Translations under genes and position numbers: made by a program | Virus record (IMG/VR): IMGVR_UViG_3300025480_000005 | Location: 1-54,958 of that record | Source: a virus | Strand: one strand, 5' to 3' | DNA: 54,958 bases | The notes under the pieces: model-generated | What the model was told of the DNA's origin: nothing | Database searches by the model: none | What the model saw: the letters and a program-made list of their open reading frames with translations, nothing else | In this document: one piece after another, positions 14,759 to 32,663 of the stretch | Position numbering within the stretch: position 1 is the first letter of the stretch | Layout of the letters: each line of letters opens with the position of its first letter

Positions 14759-16915
14759 CTATCCTATGGCTTCGAGACGCCGCATCAGTCGTCGTCGCTC
14801 CGCTTCGATCCCGACCGCTGGCCGAATCGTCATCCGCTCCTCCCAGAATTGCGCCAGTTCGGCCGGGAGCGGCAGCTTCAGCATGAATCGCGCATAGCTT
14901 TCCGCGAAGACTTCCGAAGCGACGCTATCGACCTTACCGCGGCGGCGGAGATCATCGAGATGTATCCGGTTCGCCATCTCGAGGAACGAACCGATCTTGT
15001 TCAGGTGCCGACGCTTGAACTCGGCGTAGGTCCCAGGGTCGATCTCCTGCCCGCGGTGGCCGGCCTCATGAAGGAGGATTTGGACGCGGTCCATCGCCGG
15101 GAGTTGATCGAATTTCCGCTGGATTTCGACGCTGTCATCGTCCGATTCGTAGGAAGCGTGCCAAGCGTCGCGATCATCCACGAAGCGAACATCGGTCACC
15201 CCGACGAAATATCCGAGCGCGTCGCGCCGCAGCGCCTTGCGGAAGATCTCTGAGTGGACGAGGTCGAGCCCGCTCGCCGCATCATCCGCCCGGGCCGCAG
15301 AGACTATGCGCGCATTCGCGAGCCACGCCTTGCCCTTCGCCGTGAGCATGTCGTCTGGCAAATCCCGGAGCGCGTATAAAAATCTGTAGGAACAACGGCA
15401 ATTATGGACGATAATGCCATCGGCAACAAACCAGCCTGATTCGGTTTGGAGATTATAGACATGCCCAGACCATTGCCGCCGTTCGATCTTGATGATGCGC
15501 GTCGCTCGTACCTCGAAGGGGAAAGTCTCTTGAGTTTGTCCAAACGATTGTGTGTTTCGCGCGGTGCGCTTGCCCACCATCTCAATATTCCTCTGCGGAA
15601 TGGCTCCGAAGCAAACTTGATCCGTATGGCCCGCGAAGGCGAAGATGGTCGGCGCAAATTGGTTGAGGCAGCACATAAAGCGCGCACCGGCGCTAAAGCT
15701 AGTTTGGAGGAAAAACTTAACCGCGCCCGCCGCCGTTCGACAGAGGTCGGCTACGGAGAACGAGAAGTGATGCAAGCCCTGCAGGCGCATGGGATTAAAA
15801 CCGAATCTCAATGGCCATGCGGTCCCTACAACATCGACATCGCTTGCGGTTCCATCGCCGTGGAATTGCTTACACGAGCCTCCAATCCTCTCAATGACCC
15901 CGAATTTATTGAGCGTAGCAAATATCTCTGCAATGCAGGTTACTGTCTTATTTTGGTTCGTTTCCGAGTTGACCGAACGGACGATGTTATCGCTAATCTC
16001 GATCATATCGTCGCCTTCATTGAGCGCGCCAATCTGGACCCATCCATGAGAAGTAAGAATTGGGTGATTAGGTGTAGCTCGGAGCGTTTTGCCAGAGGCC
16101 GTAATGATCGTGGTCAAGTCACCGCTGTACCAACGCCGATACGCTTTTTCCACATTATCAGCGAATGGTATCTGTGAGTCGCCAGGGAAGCAGAAGGGAA
16201 GTTGCGCCGGTGCTTCGATTTCGTCGACGAAAGGTCGACTATTCTTCTTGACCAAACCGGCACGATGCGCCCACGAATCGCGGACAAGATAGATTTGCTC
16301 GTCGCGCGCTTTATGCTCAGGCCTCGCGTCATAGCCTGCCTGACGCCACATACTTCGCCACATTCCCGCTATCGCTCCCCCGTCCGTGGCAACGAGATCG
16401 TTGATTGAGGCGATGAGTTTAGCCGATTGATCGATCACAACGCGGCGTTCTTCATACGGCAGCGAGGCAAGCGCCTTCTTAACGTTTTGCTTGACCTCGC
16501 GCCTTCCCTCTGCCGAAACCCCGCCGGGCGGAATCGACGTCGACCAACCCTGGAATCGCCGCAGCGTCTTCTCGATCGATTCGGCCCGGTTGAGCTTGAT
16601 GAGATCGGACGAGGCGACGATCCGCCGGTCGAGTTCGGCACGGAGTTGAGGTCGCACCTTCTCCAGCGTGAACCGCTCGACGCCTTGGTGATATTTTGCG
16701 ATCCCGCCGCGCTCGACGAGACGCCGGTAGATCGTCGCCAATCCTTCCCGGAGCTGCTGCTCCAGCGCCACCGCCGAGATCATCGAGGCCTCGGCCGCGA
16801 TCCGGAGTTCGCGCGTCCACTTCGCGATTCGTTCCCCCGAATCAAAGCCATGCTGCAAAATGTCCTCGACCGCAGCGTCAAGGACTTCCTGAAAGGTCTT
16901 CAGGCGGGCGGTCAT
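14759..16915 (-). CDS. Mu F-like head morphogenesis protein containing an intein, 718 aa precursor
   Basis: Residues 1-241 and 506-718 together form a phage head morphogenesis/minor head protein (SPP1 gp7/Mu gpF type), with RSMWRQAGYDARPEHKARD followed by the conserved CRCSYRF motif. The C-terminal extension has an HEAGH metallopeptidase-like signature (VQILLHEAGHRG), seen in some fusions of this family. Residues 242-505 are an intein inserted immediately before the Cys of CRC. After splicing the mature protein would be 454 residues. The gene lies directly before the HD-gene insertion and after a 4-base overlap with the 78-residue gene. An endonuclease gene is nested on the opposite strand. 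Confidence 0.85.
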   Translation of the reverse strand: MTARLKTFQEVLDAAVEDILQHGFDSGERIAKWTRELRIAAEASMISAVALEQQLREGLATIYRRLVERGGIAKYHQGVERFTLEKVRPQLRAELDRRIVASSDLIKLNRAESIEKTLRRFQGWSTSIPPGGVSAEGRREVKQNVKKALASLPYEERRVVIDQSAKLIASINDLVATDGGAIAGMWRSMWRQAGYDARPEHKARDEQIYLVRDSWAHRAGLVKKNSRPFVDEIEAPAQLPFCFPGDSQIPFADNVEKAYRRWYSGDLTTIITASGKTLRATPNHPILTSHGWVQIGALNEGDDMIEISDNIVRSVNSETNQNKTVTCIAEIFATLNKFGVIERIGGSCKQFHGDGTASDVDVVGTAWPLRFGFNPMRLQGLHHFSFSVADLCRTAAGAVKFFLQTSFSAGARFMCCLNQFAPTIFAFAGHTDQVCFGAIPQRNIEMVGKRTARNTQSFGQTQETFPFEVRATRIIKIERRQWSGHVYNLQTESGWFVADGIIVHNCRCSYRFLYALRDLPDDMLTAKGKAWLANARIVSAARADDAASGLDLVHSEIFRKALRRDALGYFVGVTDVRFVDDRDAWHASYESDDDSVEIQRKFDQLPAMDRVQILLHEAGHRGQEIDPGTYAEFKRRHLNKIGSFLEMANRIHLDDLRRRGKVDSVASEVFAESYARFMLKLPLPAELAQFWEERMTIRPAVGIEAERRRLMRRLEAIG
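15448..15451 (+). promoter_or_regulatory. Shine-Dalgarno site of the nested endonuclease
   Basis: GGAG is spaced 9 bases from the ATG at 15461. This favours that start over the TTG 15 bases upstream, which the same GGAG would overlap. Confidence 0.55.
15461..16177 (+). CDS. Homing endonuclease (HTH plus Vsr/EDxHD-like nuclease) antisense within the intein, 238 aa
   Basis: Residues 15-50 (LEGESLLSLSKRLCVSRGALAHHL) form a helix-turn-helix of the kind fused to phage homing nucleases. Residues 98-170 have the Vsr/DUF559-like core: GYGEREVMQALQAHG with E100, then GPYNIDIACGSIAVELL with D126 and E135, then ERSKYLCNAGYCLILVRF. The frame runs 238 codons with no stop and lies entirely inside the intein on the opposite strand, so both strands are coding across it. 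It has its own ribosome-binding site. Its product would be expected to cut the intein-free allele of the head gene. I know of inteins with in-frame nucleases and of free-standing neighbours; I do not recall this nested antisense arrangement. Confidence 0.8.
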   Translation: MPRPLPPFDLDDARRSYLEGESLLSLSKRLCVSRGALAHHLNIPLRNGSEANLIRMAREGEDGRRKLVEAAHKARTGAKASLEEKLNRARRRSTEVGYGEREVMQALQAHGIKTESQWPCGPYNIDIACGSIAVELLTRASNPLNDPEFIERSKYLCNAGYCLILVRFRVDRTDDVIANLDHIVAFIERANLDPSMRSKNWVIRCSSERFARGRNDRGQVTAVPTPIRFFHIISEWYL

Positions 16916-20432: not shown

Positions 20433-20771
20433 CATGCTTATCCGGTTTAGACACACAGCCCTACATCTTGTGGTCAGGTTCGCGCCCGTGAAAATCTTGG
20501 GCTTGGTCCCAGCGTTCGCCGGTCTCGCCGCCTTTGCTTACCGAGCAAACGATAGATGCCCATTCCGCCGCTGGAATTACCAATGTGGTGCGGCCATCAC
20601 CCGGCGCGCAGTTAGGATCGTGCTTTTCAAAGTCGCCGTGATTGCGAACTTCTACGCTGCCATCCGGCAGCCGCGACCAGTACCATCCATTTTGCCAGTG
20701 AAAAGCCATCGTCATTTTCTCCTATATCTAGTGGGTTTCAGGGCTTGTGTGTGGCAACCGGATAAGCAATG
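20433..20771. mobile_element. Element A: non-autonomous inverted-repeat cassette, 339 bp
   Basis: The left end is CATGCTTATCCGGTTTAGAC and the right end, read inwards, is GCTTATCCGGTTGCCACAC. They match over 12 outer bases and again at ACACACA further in. The right tip has one extra base (GCAATG instead of GCATG). It holds one gene and no transposase. The flanks do not show an 8-bp duplication, but a small gene is split at the site. The ends are the same as those of elements B, C and D and closely related to those of the transposase-bearing element E. Confidence 0.75.
20461..20715 (-). CDS. Cargo gene of element A, 84 aa
   Basis: Starting at ATG 20715 behind AGGAGAAA, the gene encodes a Trp-rich, acidic protein (FHWQNGWYWSRLPDGSVEVR, AAEWASIVCSV, ERWDQAQDFHG) that fills the whole element. 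The stop TAG lies a few bases from the left inverted repeat. In the other cassettes an ATG sits at the CACTAGATG motif; here that site reads CTAGATATAGG and the start has moved downstream. The function is unknown; it looks like a small phage-type protein. Confidence 0.65.
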   Translation of the reverse strand: MTMAFHWQNGWYWSRLPDGSVEVRNHGDFEKHDPNCAPGDGRTTLVIPAAEWASIVCSVSKGGETGERWDQAQDFHGREPDHKM

Positions 20772-24315: not shown

Positions 24316-24392
24316 GCCTTGAAAATAGTTTATGAAACTTAATTTTGGAAACTTTTTTGTTAAACCATTGATTTCATATATGCTTATCCGGT

Positions 24393-24563
24393 TTAGACAG
24401 ACAGCCTTACAGCTTGTGGTTCGTGGGTTAGCAACAGTTGCATGAGATGCTGATCTTTGCCGCTGCGAAGATCGTAAACGCCGATGCGGCTGAAATCGGC
24501 GCTGAGGCGGCTCAACCAGTCTCCGGAAAAGTCAACGGACAAATAATCCGGGCAATTGTCCAT
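24393..24563 (-). CDS. Cargo gene of element B, 56 aa
   Basis: ATG 24563 follows TAGGAGCG. The product is acidic (MDNCPDYLSVDFSGDWLSRL, then RIGVYDLRSGKDQHLMQLL). Its stop codon TAA is supplied by the inverted repeat itself (GTCTAAACCGG), so the element end closes the gene. The function is unknown. Confidence 0.5.
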   Translation of the reverse strand: MDNCPDYLSVDFSGDWLSRLSADFSRIGVYDLRSGKDQHLMQLLLTHEPQAVRLSV

Positions 24564-24681
24564 CGCTCCTAATTGTACGTGCGCGTAGCGTCACGACCGT
24601 CCGCAAAGGTACGCGCAATATTAGGAGCGTCGCGGCTTCCTTGCCTTTGGCCGGTGCCCGCCGGCTGGTGACGGTGACCAT
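24532..24681 (-). CDS. Possible small cargo ORF of element B, 49 aa
   Basis: ATG 24681 is preceded by GGGGAGAACCGAC. The peptide is basic (MVTVTSRRAPAKGKEAATLL, then LRTVVTLRARTIRSDG) and overlaps the next ORF by 32 bases. Composition fits a small DNA- or RNA-binding peptide, but confidence is low because of length. Confidence 0.4.
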   Translation of the reverse strand: MVTVTSRRAPAKGKEAATLLILRVPLRTVVTLRARTIRSDGQLPGLFVR

Positions 24682-24841
24682 GTCGGTTCTCCCCGACCGG
24701 AGAATCGCAGGCGAGGGTTAATGGTTCCTGACAAAAGCCGCCGCGAAGCACCTGGGGCGGCAGCGTTTCCGGGCGGTGTAGGGCCGCCAGCTTCACTTTT
24801 TGGATCAATAAATCGGTCGCAAAAATGAAGCCCAGACCGCG

Positions 24842-25075
24842 CTATGAGCTAGCATCCGCCCGGTTCCAAGACGCCAGCCCAGCTAAAACACGCCATATCA
24901 TAACAATGGCATTGTTATTGGATAATTTGCAGTGGCGTAGGGCGTATGGCCAAGGCCCCTCTCGAAGGGCGAGATCGATTTCTTCATTGAGAAGCGGATC
25001 GTCCTCAAATGCCGCTCTAGCAACTGCCGCTACAGCTTCTTCTTCTCCGGGCACCATGAGATGATACGTCAACAT
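24842..25075 (-). CDS. First cargo gene of element B, 77 aa
   Basis: The start ATG at 25075 is part of the conserved inner motif TACTAGATGTTGACG of the element end, so the protein begins MLT as in elements C and D. The product is acidic and helical (MVPGEEEAVAAVARAAFEDD, LLNEEIDLALREGPWPYALR). No family is recognised. Transcription would enter from the right or from a promoter in the element end. Confidence 0.6.
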   Translation of the reverse strand: MLTYHLMVPGEEEAVAAVARAAFEDDPLLNEEIDLALREGPWPYALRHCKLSNNNAIVMIWRVLAGLASWNRADASS

Positions 25076-25120
25076 CTAGTATCTCTCAGAATTTGTGTGT
25101 GGCAACCGGATAAGCATGAT

Positions 25121-25342: not shown

Positions 25343-25534
25343 CAGAGTGCGGTTGCTTTCTGCGTCGATCCATCATTGCGCGGCATCGGCGATCACGGCA
25401 AGTTCCGCCCGTTTTTCTAGTTCCTGATAACTCGGAAGTGGCAACTTTAGTTTCTCCGCGCGACCAATCCAGAAGCTATGACGATAACAGTGTGAACGGT
25501 TAGCCGAAGGCTCGGGCGCGTCGAGGTCGTAGCC

Positions 25535-25542
25535 ATCCATAT
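25535..25542. repeat. 8-bp target-site duplication of element C
   Basis: ATCCATAT immediately left of element C is repeated exactly at 26218-26225, immediately right of it. Eight bases is the duplication length of the IS1595 family. Confidence 0.85.
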
Positions 25543-26217
25543 CATGCTTATCCGGTTGACACACACAGGCCGAAAATGCCCCAACATGTAGTGGCTCCTT
25601 CATGGTCTACCTGTAGTGGGTTGCTTGATTTCGATGGCGTGCGTGATGTGCCACTTGCCGCTCGCGCGCGGATATTGCGAGATCAAGTGAGGGGCGATGA
25701 CGCGCGTCCAATCCTGCAAAGAGCACCATCCGGTGCCGTTATTCATGCAGTTGATGTCAAAAACCCCGTAGGAAGATCGGCCACCCTGACCGCCAACCCA
25801 ATGGGTATAGCGATAGCGGGCGCGCATCGGCACCTCGGGGCGCGTCCATGGCCCCTCCCATTGAATGCGAACAAGCCCATAGCGGGGCCAACCGATAAAA
25901 TCGTCCGGCGTAAGGGCGTAGCCGAGCGCCGCAGAGCGATATTTTGCGCCGATGCTTTTCAGCGCATCAAACATCATCGTTGGGTTCGTGTAGCGCTTGT
26001 AATCAAAGCCGATCAGGTGCGGTCGTACTTCATCCAGCGTCATGCCCATGATCGCGGCGAGCGCGCCGGGGCCGCAATTTGCGCCCCATTCATCGTGAGC
26101 GCGGTCGGCGTCGGCCAACGTGAAACGCGGCGCTATAGGTTGTGTTGCGCTCGCCGCCGGGTCTTTCGTCTGTGTCGTCAACATTTAGTACCTGTGTGTG
26201 TCAACCGGATAAGCATG
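25543..26217. mobile_element. Element C: non-autonomous inverted-repeat cassette, 675 bp
   Basis: The two ends are perfect inverted repeats over 27 bases, beginning CATGCTTATCCGGTTGACAC at the left and its complement at the right. The element is flanked by the exact duplication ATCCATAT. It carries one gene and no transposase. It interrupts a phage gene that is restored when it is removed. This is the best-preserved of the four transposase-less copies and so probably a recent insertion. Confidence 0.88.
25600..26184 (-). CDS. Cargo gene of element C: papain/C39-like fold protein, 194 aa
   Basis: The protein starts MLTTQTK at the ATG inside the element-end motif TACTAAATGTTGACG. It contains WGANCGPGALAAIMGMTLDE, then RYTHWVGG and YGVFDINCMN: a Cys-Gly-Pro near the N-terminus, a Thr-His-Trp and an Asp/Asn later, the order of a C39/NlpC-like papain-fold catalytic site. 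A Trp-rich middle follows (IGWPRYGLVRIQWEGPW). Similar proteins occur in rhizobial phages. Peptidase or deamidase activity is an inference. The cargo fills the element. Confidence 0.65.
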   Translation of the reverse strand: MLTTQTKDPAASATQPIAPRFTLADADRAHDEWGANCGPGALAAIMGMTLDEVRPHLIGFDYKRYTNPTMMFDALKSIGAKYRSAALGYALTPDDFIGWPRYGLVRIQWEGPWTRPEVPMRARYRYTHWVGGQGGRSSYGVFDINCMNNGTGWCSLQDWTRVIAPHLISQYPRASGKWHITHAIEIKQPTTGRP

Positions 26218-26368
26218 ATCCATATAGCCTTCGATCATTTCAGCGTTCGCTTGTTTCATGGTACACCCGATTGATTCGCAGGATAGAGAAATATTTACCT
26301 ATTGTCTAGACGGGCGCGGCCCCAATGCGCTAACGTATCGGCCCGGAGTAAAGTTGTGGAGAGTTCCG

Positions 26369-27407: not shown

Positions 27408-27415
27408 ATCCAAAT
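27408..27415. repeat. 8-bp target-site duplication of element D (7 of 8)
   Basis: ATCCAAAT at the left of element D corresponds to ATCCAAAC at 27922-27929 on the right. One base differs. The sequence resembles the C target (ATCCATAT), which hints at a target preference. Confidence 0.7.
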
Positions 27416-27452
27416 CATGTTTATCCGGTTGCCACACACAAACGCGGAGAGC

Positions 27453-27467
27453 CACTAGATGTTGACG
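27453..27467 (+). promoter_or_regulatory. Conserved start-codon element just inside the cassette end
   Basis: CACTAGATGTTGACG in element D holds the cargo start codon. Element B has TACTAGATGTTGACG and C has TACTAAATGTTGACG at the equivalent place. A has CACTAGATATAGG and E TGCTAGATAATGG. A purine-rich GGAGAG lies upstream in D and GAGAG in B. The cassette end therefore provides translation start signals to whatever gene it carries. Confidence 0.65.
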
Positions 27468-27887
27468 GAGGTGAAAATGGAGCGGCCGTTGATGAAATGC
27501 GGATGCGTCGCGCAAGGCGTTCTTCGCGCCAGAGGCGGCGAGACTTTGGACCCGCCGATCCCGGCTTATGTTGTCCATGAGTGCTACGATGTTGCGGACG
27601 ATAAGCCCGATTTGACTGGCCGCATCGCACAATGTGCCTATTTGCCAAAAGGACATGCGCCCAAGCCGTCGTCCTATGATCTGGCGTTTTTTGAATATCT
27701 TGGTCCCGGCTCCCGAGAGTCGTCTGACCTGTGCAAATGCGGCTTCTCAAAAAAGCCCCACGATGAAAATGGCGGTCGTATTCCGCCGAAAAAGTACGCC
27801 GCCAACATGAAAGGTTGTGCAGCTTTCACGCCGAAAGGTCCCGCCGAGTTTGACCGCTACTATTGTGGTTGCCACGGATGGGACTAG
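27459..27887 (+). CDS. Cargo gene of element D: Cys-rich protein, 142 aa
   Basis: The product begins MLTEVKMERPL at the start codon in the element end. It contains several Cys and His suited to zinc binding (MKCGCVAQGVL, VHECYDVAD, IAQCAYLPKGH, DLCKCGFSKKPH, YYCGCHGWD). Such zinc-ribbon-like small proteins are common in phages, with unknown roles. The stop TAG comes shortly before the downstream element end. Confidence 0.65.
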   Translation: MLTEVKMERPLMKCGCVAQGVLRARGGETLDPPIPAYVVHECYDVADDKPDLTGRIAQCAYLPKGHAPKPSSYDLAFFEYLGPGSRESSDLCKCGFSKKPHDENGGRIPPKKYAANMKGCAAFTPKGPAEFDRYYCGCHGWD

Positions 27888-28002
27888 GGGTAGGGCTGTG
27901 TGTCTAAACCGGATAAGCATGATCCAAACAGCCGAGAGAATCCGCGACTGCGGATTCCCCGATTTCCTTAACCGCTGGCTGATGATGCTGGAGGAGGAGA
28001 AC

Positions 28003-30260: not shown

Positions 30261-30487
30261 GGTTCCTTCGGCTTGTTCGTGTGCCCTTTGAAAAACTCTG
30301 GCATCGCTTCCGCGACGGTGCGGTTGAGGAATGGCTCTGGATCGTTAGTCGAGATTGCGACGCGGCTTCTCGCCATCCCAGCTTCGAACGCGCCAAATAG
30401 CTTCAGCGCGGCCGCAGCGATTCGGTAGTCGCGCGGGATGCGGAGCGAGGTCGAGTTCTCGATGATCTGTTTTATGCTTATCGGGTT

Positions 30488-31561
30488 TCAACATGCAGTG
30501 TCTAGCGGTTGATCGTCATCATGACTGACCTTTTGATGCTGCCACTTGCCGCTGTAGAGGCCGTCATAGGTCGGGCTTTCACCGTTCGCGCCGATGCCCA
30601 AGAGGGAGCGGAAGGCGTTGAACGGGTAGAAGCGGCGATTGAAGCGGAAGGCAAATTCGTTGAGGTAGGCTTGAAGGTGCTTTGGCTCGACGCGCCCGTG
30701 ATGGGTGCTTTGCAGCCATGCTTTGAGGTTGCTGAAAACAAGGTGGACGATGGGCAGGTATTCTTCCGCGACTTCGGGATTGCCACCTTCGACCACCGGC
30801 AGATGGGCATAGCCGCGTTTTTCGAGCGAATTATACGCGGGAGCCGCGTCGGTGATGACGATTGCGCCAATGGCGACGGCGGCTTCCACAAACCCGCAAA
30901 GAGCCTTTTCGGTACGATCTGGCACAATCTCGATACGAAGCCGCCCCGCGTATCGGCCGCCTCTCCGCATGGGCTTGTCGCCTTTCTTAGCTGCCCGCTG
31001 GCGGACTTCGACGGCAGCAATAATCAGGCATTTTTCATCGGCGTGGGGGCCTTTGCCCTTCCCGCGCGTCTTGCCGCCGATGTAGCACTCGTCAACCTCG
31101 ACGTGATCGCTACGCGCCAGATTGCCGCCGATGGGATCGCGGTTAGGTCGCACCATGCCCGCCCGCAGCTTGTGCAGGATTTGGAAGGCGGTTTCGTAGC
31201 AGCCGACACCGACTTGCCGATGCAATTGCACCGCCGAAATGCCGGGTGTCATGCTCGAAACAAGATAAGCGGACCAAAACCATGCCGTCAGGGACGTGTG
31301 GGTTCCTTCCATGACGGTTCCGACCGTGATGGAAGTTTGCTTTCGGCAGGCGCGGCAGGCCAGCACCTTCGGCCGACTCGCCAAGCGCACCGGCTCGCCC
31401 TTTTCGTGGCAGTGCGGGCATTCAAAGCCCTTCAACCATTTCGCGCCTTCAAGCCAACGGGCACACGCGGCATCGTCAGGAAAGAGCCGCTGGAAGTCTT
31501 TGAGAGATTTCGGGAAGGGCAGGTGTTCCCATTGATGAACGTCGGGGATGGCGGGCGACAT
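30488..31561 (-). CDS. IS1595-family (ISXO2-like) transposase, 357 aa
   Basis: The N-terminus has a zinc ribbon (CPHC at 48-51, CRAC at 69-72). The catalytic core shows HVEVDECYIGGK with D157, then IVITDAAPAY with D238, and the ISXO2 signature NLKAWLQSTHHGRVEPKHLQ with N278, K280 and H287/H288, ending YLNEFAFRFNRR. This is the DDN/DDE architecture of ISXO2-like enzymes, which make 8-bp duplications. The ATG at 31561 directly follows the TAG of the passenger gene, so transposase is the last gene of a four-gene unit. It may also act on elements A-D if it tolerates their CCGG tip. Confidence 0.9.
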   Translation of the reverse strand: MSPAIPDVHQWEHLPFPKSLKDFQRLFPDDAACARWLEGAKWLKGFECPHCHEKGEPVRLASRPKVLACRACRKQTSITVGTVMEGTHTSLTAWFWSAYLVSSMTPGISAVQLHRQVGVGCYETAFQILHKLRAGMVRPNRDPIGGNLARSDHVEVDECYIGGKTRGKGKGPHADEKCLIIAAVEVRQRAAKKGDKPMRRGGRYAGRLRIEIVPDRTEKALCGFVEAAVAIGAIVITDAAPAYNSLEKRGYAHLPVVEGGNPEVAEEYLPIVHLVFSNLKAWLQSTHHGRVEPKHLQAYLNEFAFRFNRRFYPFNAFRSLLGIGANGESPTYDGLYSGKWQHQKVSHDDDQPLDTAC

Positions 31562-31831
31562 CTATCCGCTCACTTTTTGCCCTTCGGCTTCCGCAGTCGC
31601 ACATGCATCGCAATAATCCCCAACAAGATCAGCGCCGCAGCACTCGCAAATTCCTTCTACTGGCGCATCCCACGCGCCGCGTGGCGACGGACAGCCCGCA
31701 CCTTCACATTCTGGACACTTTCCAATATCGGTTTCGAGGCTAGGATCGTCCGGTTGCGGGTCGTGCCGCATGAGGCGACCGTCTATGCACCGGGTCTGGG
31801 TAGTATGGAAACTACGGTTTCGGCGGCTCAT
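31562..31831 (-). CDS. Passenger gene of element E: zinc-ribbon protein, 89 aa
   Basis: The C-terminal 50 residues contain paired CxxC motifs (CPECEGAGCPSPRG, ICECCGADLVGDYCDACA) of a double zinc ribbon. The N-terminus is basic and polar. The stop is immediately followed by the transposase ATG. Zinc ribbons of this kind can bind DNA or partner proteins, so a role in transposition or in the host phage is open. Confidence 0.65.
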   Translation of the reverse strand: MSRRNRSFHTTQTRCIDGRLMRHDPQPDDPSLETDIGKCPECEGAGCPSPRGAWDAPVEGICECCGADLVGDYCDACATAEAEGQKVSG

Positions 31832-31834
31832 AAT

Positions 31835-32083
31835 TTAGGCCCCCGCGTGGATCGGATGACGAATGTCGTGACCACAGATCGCGCATTCGTCGATGGATTT
31901 GCCGACCATCGTCCCGGCAGCATGGCAATGGTCACGCTGTTCGGCGACGATCAGGGTCTTTTTCGTGGCTTCGTATGCCGCCTCAATGTGATCCATGATG
32001 ATTTTGTCATCGGATGGCGCACGTTGCCGAATAGCCGCCCCAAGGTGGCCAAGGATGTTTTCAAGGTGCTGGACTTTCATCAT
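31835..32083 (-). CDS. Passenger gene of element E, 82 aa
   Basis: Helical N-terminal half (KVQHLENILGHLGAAIRQRA, DHIEAAYEATKKTLIVAEQ) and a C-terminal Cys/His cluster (DHCHAAGTMVG, DECAICGHDIRH) that looks like a small zinc finger. Separated by 3 bases from each neighbour. The function is unknown. Confidence 0.6.
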   Translation of the reverse strand: MMKVQHLENILGHLGAAIRQRAPSDDKIIMDHIEAAYEATKKTLIVAEQRDHCHAAGTMVGKSIDECAICGHDIRHPIHAGA

Positions 32084-32086
32084 GGC

Positions 32087-32512
32087 TCAGGCTCCAACAC
32101 CGAATTGCCCATTATCGGCTCGGATTTGTTCGGCCTGTTTCTGGCGATCAGAGCACCAACCCCGCAGACCGTTGTCGATGATCCCGCCCCTTCCGATCAG
32201 CGACTCGACGTTGATCGAAGTGCTCGGGGCGTTGTTGGCATCGAAATGGAGCCAAGTTCCATCGCGACCGCAGTTAATCGACAGTCCGCAATCATCTATC
32301 GGGATAGTCGTGGCTTGTTCGATTTTGGCGGGACTGGCGGGCAGCGGCATCCAATGTGTCGGTTGCTCGTCAGCCGGGTAGGGCGAATAAGCCGGACCAT
32401 TTGTGGCCCAACACCCTTGCTGCCGGTGCCAATGGCAAACGGTCATCCATTGGCCTGTGCAAGCAAGGAAACTGGACCCGTCTTTCGGTGCGCTCTCAAT
32501 CAGTTTCCACAT
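32087..32512 (-). CDS. Passenger gene of element E: DUF551-like protein, 141 aa
   Basis: The first 65 residues (LIESAPKDGSSFLACTG, HWHRQQGCWATNG, THWMPLPASPAK) match DUF551, a short domain common in phages, with the characteristic APKDG and HWMPLP. The C-terminal half is unlike it. The gene is first in the element E unit; the 60 bases between it and the repeat probably hold its promoter or leader. The function of DUF551 is not known to me. Confidence 0.7.
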   Translation of the reverse strand: MWKLIESAPKDGSSFLACTGQWMTVCHWHRQQGCWATNGPAYSPYPADEQPTHWMPLPASPAKIEQATTIPIDDCGLSINCGRDGTWLHFDANNAPSTSINVESLIGRGGIIDNGLRGWCSDRQKQAEQIRADNGQFGVGA

Positions 32513-32663
32513 CTTAGTCTCCTGTTAACTAAGGCCGTCCATCGGCCTAACCATTATCTAGCACAGGTAGGTGCATGTGTCAACCCGATAAGCATGAAAC
32601 GAAATGCCTTGTCGGTCTCCCCGCGCTTCTCGGCGGCAATATCGACCACTTCCCGATGTCTAC

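Follow-up and report, generated by a model that had tools for sequence, protein, structure and literature searches.

A transposase-less single-gene cassette with IS1595-type ends in a phage contig, and a largely phage-borne family of related cassettes

Introduction

Phage genomes are mosaics. To our knowledge, illegitimate recombination and homing endonucleases aside, there is little to explain how single accessory genes hop from one phage to an unrelated one. The window analysed here is the whole stretch of 54,958 nucleotides of IMG/VR record IMGVR_UViG_3300025480_000005, a phage contig with terminase, portal, head and baseplate genes. In this contig a small phage gene is split by a 675 bp segment, element C, which has inverted terminal repeats and encodes a protein but no transposase. 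What kind of element is C, and what could have moved it? C is very probably a non-autonomous single-gene transposon (a mobile insertion cassette, MIC) of the IS1595 type, moved by the transposase of a related transposon.

Results

Element C splits a small phage gene

Element C lies at 25543-26217 with its passenger gene on the minus strand; its ends and duplication were read from the sequence. The terminal inverted repeats, at 25543-25569 on the passenger 3′ side and at 26191-26217 on the passenger 5′ side, are perfect over 27 bp, or 29 bp when the AT of each duplication is included. The octamer ATCCATAT flanks the element at 25535-25542 and 26218-26225 (8 of 8 bases matching), and these are its only occurrences on the plus strand of the window. 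Both the duplication and the perfect ends were found as the earlier note had described them.

The interrupted gene was traced by frame reading and by homologues. Its 5′ part (MKQANAEMIEGYMD) is at 26218-26259 and its 3′ part (GYDLDAPEPSANRSHC...) at 25373-25534, both on the minus strand. Removal of C and one copy of the duplication joins ...EMIEGYMD in frame to GYDLDAPEPSANRSHC... The in-frame joining claimed earlier holds, but not the length of 75 codons, as the rejoined protein has 67 residues from its ATG. Uninterrupted homologues, which the earlier note had proposed to look for in related phages, were found in three other viral contigs (L174, L175, L176) and span the junction; in one such alignment EMWTGYLDGFDPDSPEPNANRSHCYRHGF is paired with EMIEGYMDGYDLDAPEPSANRSHCYRHSF. 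The "typical phage motif" ascribed to the rejoined protein does not stand in that form and comes down to small phage homologues. A cassette homologous to C occupies an unrelated site in another phage (L017), with its own perfect duplication AAAGAAAT. The hallmarks of C itself, the uninterrupted homologues, the L017 cassette and the wider family bear out the view of C as a transposase-less cassette that was inserted here. Its supposedly recent arrival could not be upheld: all five contigs found of C's phage carry C and the exact empty-site string had no match in viral contigs, so the insertion cannot be dated.

Every source is a metagenome assembly, in which contigs may be broken or wrongly joined at such short repeats, and the structure might be an artefact of this. 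This explanation deserves next to no credence, since separate assemblies (L009-L013) agree on the junctions of C. The duplications, moreover, differ from cassette to cassette, and misjoins would not make matching 8-mers outside the repeat.

The passenger of C (25600-26184, minus strand) is a single protein of 194 aa without a transposase domain. C works like an IS1595 derivative, yet it is not an IS. The start codon is 33 bp from the cassette end. The protein is predicted to be a papain-like cysteine protease from conserved Cys37, His128 and Asp143 (NCGP, THW and Asp are conserved) and from a structural model with pLDDT 85. The best matches in a fold search were mostly cysteine proteases (C39 peptidases, Josephin, staphopain), none of which passes E 0.001, and comparison with Pfam, PHROGs and NCBIfam gave no match.

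Sibling elements in the window

The cassette end is present in 10 copies in the window, delimiting five elements, A to E. Element D (27416-27921, plus strand; passenger 27459-27887) is a sibling cassette between ATCCAAAT (27408-27415) and ATCCAAAC (27922-27929), which match at 7 of 8 bases. In the near-identical strain L012 (99.7%) D is absent and a single target copy represents the empty site. Element A (20433-20770, minus strand; passenger 20461-20715) is a sibling cassette without target duplication; at its site L012 has about 86 bp that are absent from the window, which suggests an adjacent deletion after insertion. Element B (24379-25118, minus strand) has sibling cassette ends and no duplication. 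It is longer in L012 and L010, where it carries a DNA methyltransferase gene. L012 also has a 119-aa gene that the window lacks; this gene and the methyltransferase gene lie between the leader of B and its remainder, so that B of the window looks like a deletion derivative.

Element E (30473-32596, minus strand) is a transposon with related ends (CATGCTTATCGGGTTGACACATGCA). Its 357-aa transposase (30488-31561, minus strand) has the domains of the IS1595 family (PF12762 7e-33, PF12760 2e-9, NF033547 3e-53). No target duplication of E was found, though terminal repeats are present. It also carries passengers 1 and 2 (89 and 82 aa, no assigned function; 31562-32083, minus strand) and passenger 3 with a DUF551 N-terminus (32087-32512, minus strand). 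The protein of C, the transposase of E and the cassette ends gave no real match in isolated phages.

Elsewhere in the window, an intein (PF14890) is located in the head-morphogenesis gene (14759-16915, minus strand). A 243-aa frame antisense in the intein region (15446-16177, plus strand) has an EDxHD/Vsr-like look and no family match; an antisense homing endonuclease is one reading of this frame, chance another.

A cassette family with exact 8-bp duplications

The family was scanned with the pattern CATGCTTATCCGGTTNNNACACAC; only exact matches to this one pattern were counted, and the counts are thus lower bounds. The scan gave 112 stretches in public viral contigs, on about 97 distinct contigs, and only 8 in 257 Gb of bacterial genomes; as the length of the viral collection is unstated, no exact enrichment follows from this comparison. 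A reversed control pattern had no match in the viral contigs, and the cassette ends were not found in plasmids.

Pairing of the ends gave 93 distinct elements, 64 with a perfect 8-bp duplication at the exact predicted register. At each of eight shifted registers (-4 to +4) no perfect duplication was seen among the 93 end pairs, and random pairing of left and right flanks gave a mean of 0.73. Chance is therefore excluded for the duplication of C. The targets are AT-rich, with a GC content of 32% vs 56% in the flanks, and the 68 elements whose duplications match at 7 or 8 bases are spread over 63 flank groups and 67 different targets. Empty sites were also seen: the target of the L123 cassette is present as a single copy in L053 (81%), and that of the L150 cassette, which sits inside another cassette, in L080 and L075 (81-83%). 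The L051 and L066 cassettes are 98% identical and occupy two unrelated sites with different duplications.

These data bear on the proposal that the repeats serve phages as boundary or linker sequences, with genes swapped by homologous recombination between shared ends. Different genes do share ends, some cassettes share 3′ tails despite different passengers, and the strain difference at B resembles recombination or deletion. Homologous recombination, however, would give neither exact duplications at one register in 64 of 93 elements nor such a diversity of targets and single-copy empty sites. As the main mechanism it is largely refuted by the duplications and empty sites and is very unlikely, while recombination between ends probably adds to the shuffling of cassettes.

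The idea of frequent insertion inside genes was rejected: the rejoined site lies within an open frame of 120 codons or more in 40 of 55 cases, compared with 451 of 500 random points. The elements thus favour gene edges or AT-rich gaps, and target preference and selection are both compatible with this pattern.

At L162:2899-3806 two tandem cassettes have one 8-bp copy of a common target (CGTTGATC) between them, the arrangement expected if one cassette had landed precisely on the duplication made by the other. On a contig of a Rhodoplanes piscinae MAG, a perfectly duplicated target flanks a DNA methyltransferase cassette near dnaA (L165:3849-4709), so that such elements may reach bacterial chromosomes.

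Cassette anatomy and selection on passengers

Most cassettes contain one intact gene and no transposase. Over 52 well-bounded cassettes the 5′ consensus is CATGCTTATCCGGTTgccaCACACAaacgCTgagacctactagatgttga. The motif CTARATGTTG occurs in 29 of the 52, and its ATG is the start codon of the passenger in 23 of these 29. At the other end, 14 of the 52 cassettes have the stop codon within the repeat, in their final 16 nt. The passenger is directed with the flanking genes in 28 cassettes and against them in 10, with 14 unclear (p = 0.005).

Could the elements be decayed MITE-like remnants with incidental internal frames? Their lengths start from 275 bp, overlapping the MITE range, and some contain only short frames. 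MITEs are short and without coding capacity, whereas the median coding fraction here is 0.84 (71 elements), passenger families recur and known enzyme domains are found. In addition, dN/dS was 0.05-0.40 in 12 of 13 homologous passenger pairs, the remaining pair being too similar to judge, and the passengers are thus real genes under purifying selection. An origin as MITE remnants is extremely improbable. The cassettes also do not conform to integron cassettes, which have a single attC site and no target duplication, as they have two inverted ends and an 8-bp duplication.

Some unrelated passengers have 3′ tails in common, for example C and L150 with their TTGRP end; this suggests that genes are replaced inside a cassette frame. 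In the passengers of L078:224-909, L087:6322-7072 and L055:5707-6226, short ADYxAKxA repeats vary in number while the ends on either side stay constant.

Phage-borne IS1595 transposons as candidate helper

Autonomous elements were searched with a transposase alignment as query. This gave 49 viral loci, with an end pair reported for 35. The combination of inverted repeats and perfect 8-bp target duplication expected of IS1595 was present in 26 of these 35 phage-borne relatives; E lacks the duplication. The elements with a perfect duplication are about 1.6-2.3 kb long, and small accessory ORFs precede the transposase. The end seen most often among them, CATGCTTATCCGGTTGACACATACA, and that of C are distinguished by 1 base of 25. 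The earlier note had linked C to IS1595 through the length of its duplication, and the link is strengthened here, as phage-borne IS1595 transposons with nearly identical ends also make 8-bp duplications. The cassette end most often reads ACACACA and the ends of transposase-bearing elements ACATACA, ACATGCA or CCCACA; given these differences, the specificity of the helper is only assumed.

Several elements bridge the two groups. The cassette L117 and the autonomous element of L080 share their first 28 nt. A transposase-less element of 928 bp (L247) has ends of the autonomous type and its own duplication ATGACTTT. The C-terminal half of E passenger 3 is 69% identical to the gene of a stand-alone cassette (L052:2172-2490), the same gene thus being found inside E and on its own. 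The two groups also co-occur: a perfect-duplication cassette was present in the fetched stretch (up to about 17 kb) of 11 of the 35 autonomous loci. An IS1595 transposase of any class was present in only 15 of 49 cassette contigs vs 2 of 29 controls (p = 0.02), where the 15 are not all of E's class and the contigs are fragments, so that a helper may come from elsewhere. By such comparisons, phage-borne IS1595 transposons are the likely helper of the cassettes, and we infer that the transposase of E's class mobilises them in trans.

Alternatively, a transposase of the host bacterium rather than a phage-borne IS1595 could move the cassettes. No IS1595 gene is seen in 34 of the 49 cassette contigs, and a few cassettes are in apparent bacterial chromosomes (near dnaA in the Rhodoplanes MAG; Bradyrhizobium). 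Against this, the E class is rare in bacteria: at the threshold applied, a search of 298 genomes from a single order found no close relative of the E transposase, although the same query matched one alphaproteobacterial MAG (75% identity, with its own duplication). The end is scarce in bacterial genomes (8 stretches, as above), and the best-matching autonomous elements found are phage-borne. A host enzyme is therefore an unlikely mover.

For a cassette moved by a helper of the IS1595 type, the steps would be as follows. The transposase would come from a full-length transposon related to the cassette; in this phage that would probably be E, or else a relative carried by a co-infecting phage. 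The enzyme would recognise the end of about 25 bp, CATGCTTATCCGGTTNNNACACACA, on both sides of the cassette and move it, and insertion at an AT-rich target would leave the 8-bp duplication. The conserved 5′ end often supplies the start codon of the passenger (CTAGATGTTG) and some 3′ ends the stop codon. The cassette would thereby arrive as a ready-to-translate gene, more often along the direction of the surrounding phage genes. Insertion, duplication, empty sites, a family, intact passengers under selection and co-occurring autonomous elements can each be read from the compared contigs; selection for accessory functions would be what keeps the cassettes.

A second IS1595 class, of about 307-320 aa, is present in the same phages. 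It was set aside as a helper, since in the two cases with flanking repeats that could be located (L178 and L179) these read GGAATTATA, unlike the cassette ends. In L179 an 8-bp direct repeat, TTTAGTAT, flanks this second-class element.

Relation to known mobile elements

MICs such as MIC231 of Bacillus cereus and mic-qnrD of Proteeae have two inverted repeats, a target duplication and a passenger replacing the transposase; a cognate IS mobilises them in trans, or is thought to do so (PMC3913671). Cassettes of the C type share the two repeats, the duplication and the passenger in the transposase's place. Unlike these elements, of which MIC231 is related to IS231 and the others are bacterial elements of small plasmids, the cassettes have IS1595-type ends and occur for the most part in uncultivated phages; their passengers comprise dozens of unrelated genes, and the conserved end frequently includes the start codon. 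ISsaga (PMC3129680) mentions IS copies that contain passenger genes, in a statement citing Siguier et al. 2009 on IS1595. E and its relatives resemble the IS1595 "transporter IS" in their transposase, 8-bp duplications and extra genes; they differ in being phage-borne, with recurrent small accessory ORFs before the transposase, and the cassettes differ in having no transposase.

MITEs lack protein-coding genes (PMC11389934), and a 2024 preprint of Nadal-Molero et al., as cited there, linked viruses and hosts through MITEs. Like MITEs the cassettes are non-autonomous and helper-dependent; unlike them they are mostly coding. With integron gene cassettes they share one feature, being compact single-gene units exchanged between genomes, but they have paired inverted repeats and a target duplication in place of a single attC site and an integrase.

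By structure, therefore, the cassettes are mobile insertion cassettes, and both MICs and IS with passengers are already known. Novelty is limited to a phage-wide family of IS1595-type coding cassettes with built-in translation signals and phage-borne partners. No description of such a phage-wide family was found in the searchable literature, which misses most subscription papers and preprints.

Passenger functions and possible role of the cassettes

Pfam searches of 69 passengers identified three C5 cytosine methylases, one Dam, one N6/N4 methylase, one Mom, three NADAR proteins, one RNA ligase and one RlaP nucleotidyltransferase. Genes for DNA modification, NADAR or RNA repair thus account for 11 of 69 passengers vs 0 of 110 neighbouring ORFs (p = 2e-5), or p = 6e-4 when only proteins with a Pfam match are compared, the number of passengers with a match being an estimate. 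The function set was picked after the passengers had been viewed, and the control ORFs were called mechanically, some being spurious; the enrichment is therefore suggestive only.

The cassette family is widespread and largely phage-borne, and a helper transposon carried by the same viruses seems to move its members. They represent a concrete and testable route of gene transfer by which environmental phages could trade single accessory genes, DNA-modification genes included: the ends are marked, the footprint can be measured and there is a candidate for the helper enzyme. A broader reading, to which we give about an even chance, is a gene-cassette economy in which a phage-adapted IS1595 family supplies the transposase and dozens of different single genes circulate ready to translate, enriched for DNA modification, ADP-ribose handling (NADAR) and RNA repair. 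If true, this would let phages gain or lose counter-defence functions gene by gene. The cassette ends could also serve as a homology-independent search signature for phage accessory genes, including those for DNA modification and possible counter-defence.

One passenger with an Acb2/Tad1-type match was left out of the counter-defence tally, as such a match also occurs among the controls. At L099:3703-4850, a cassette-like end pair without target duplication encloses a TnpB/Cas12f-like gene of 357 aa.
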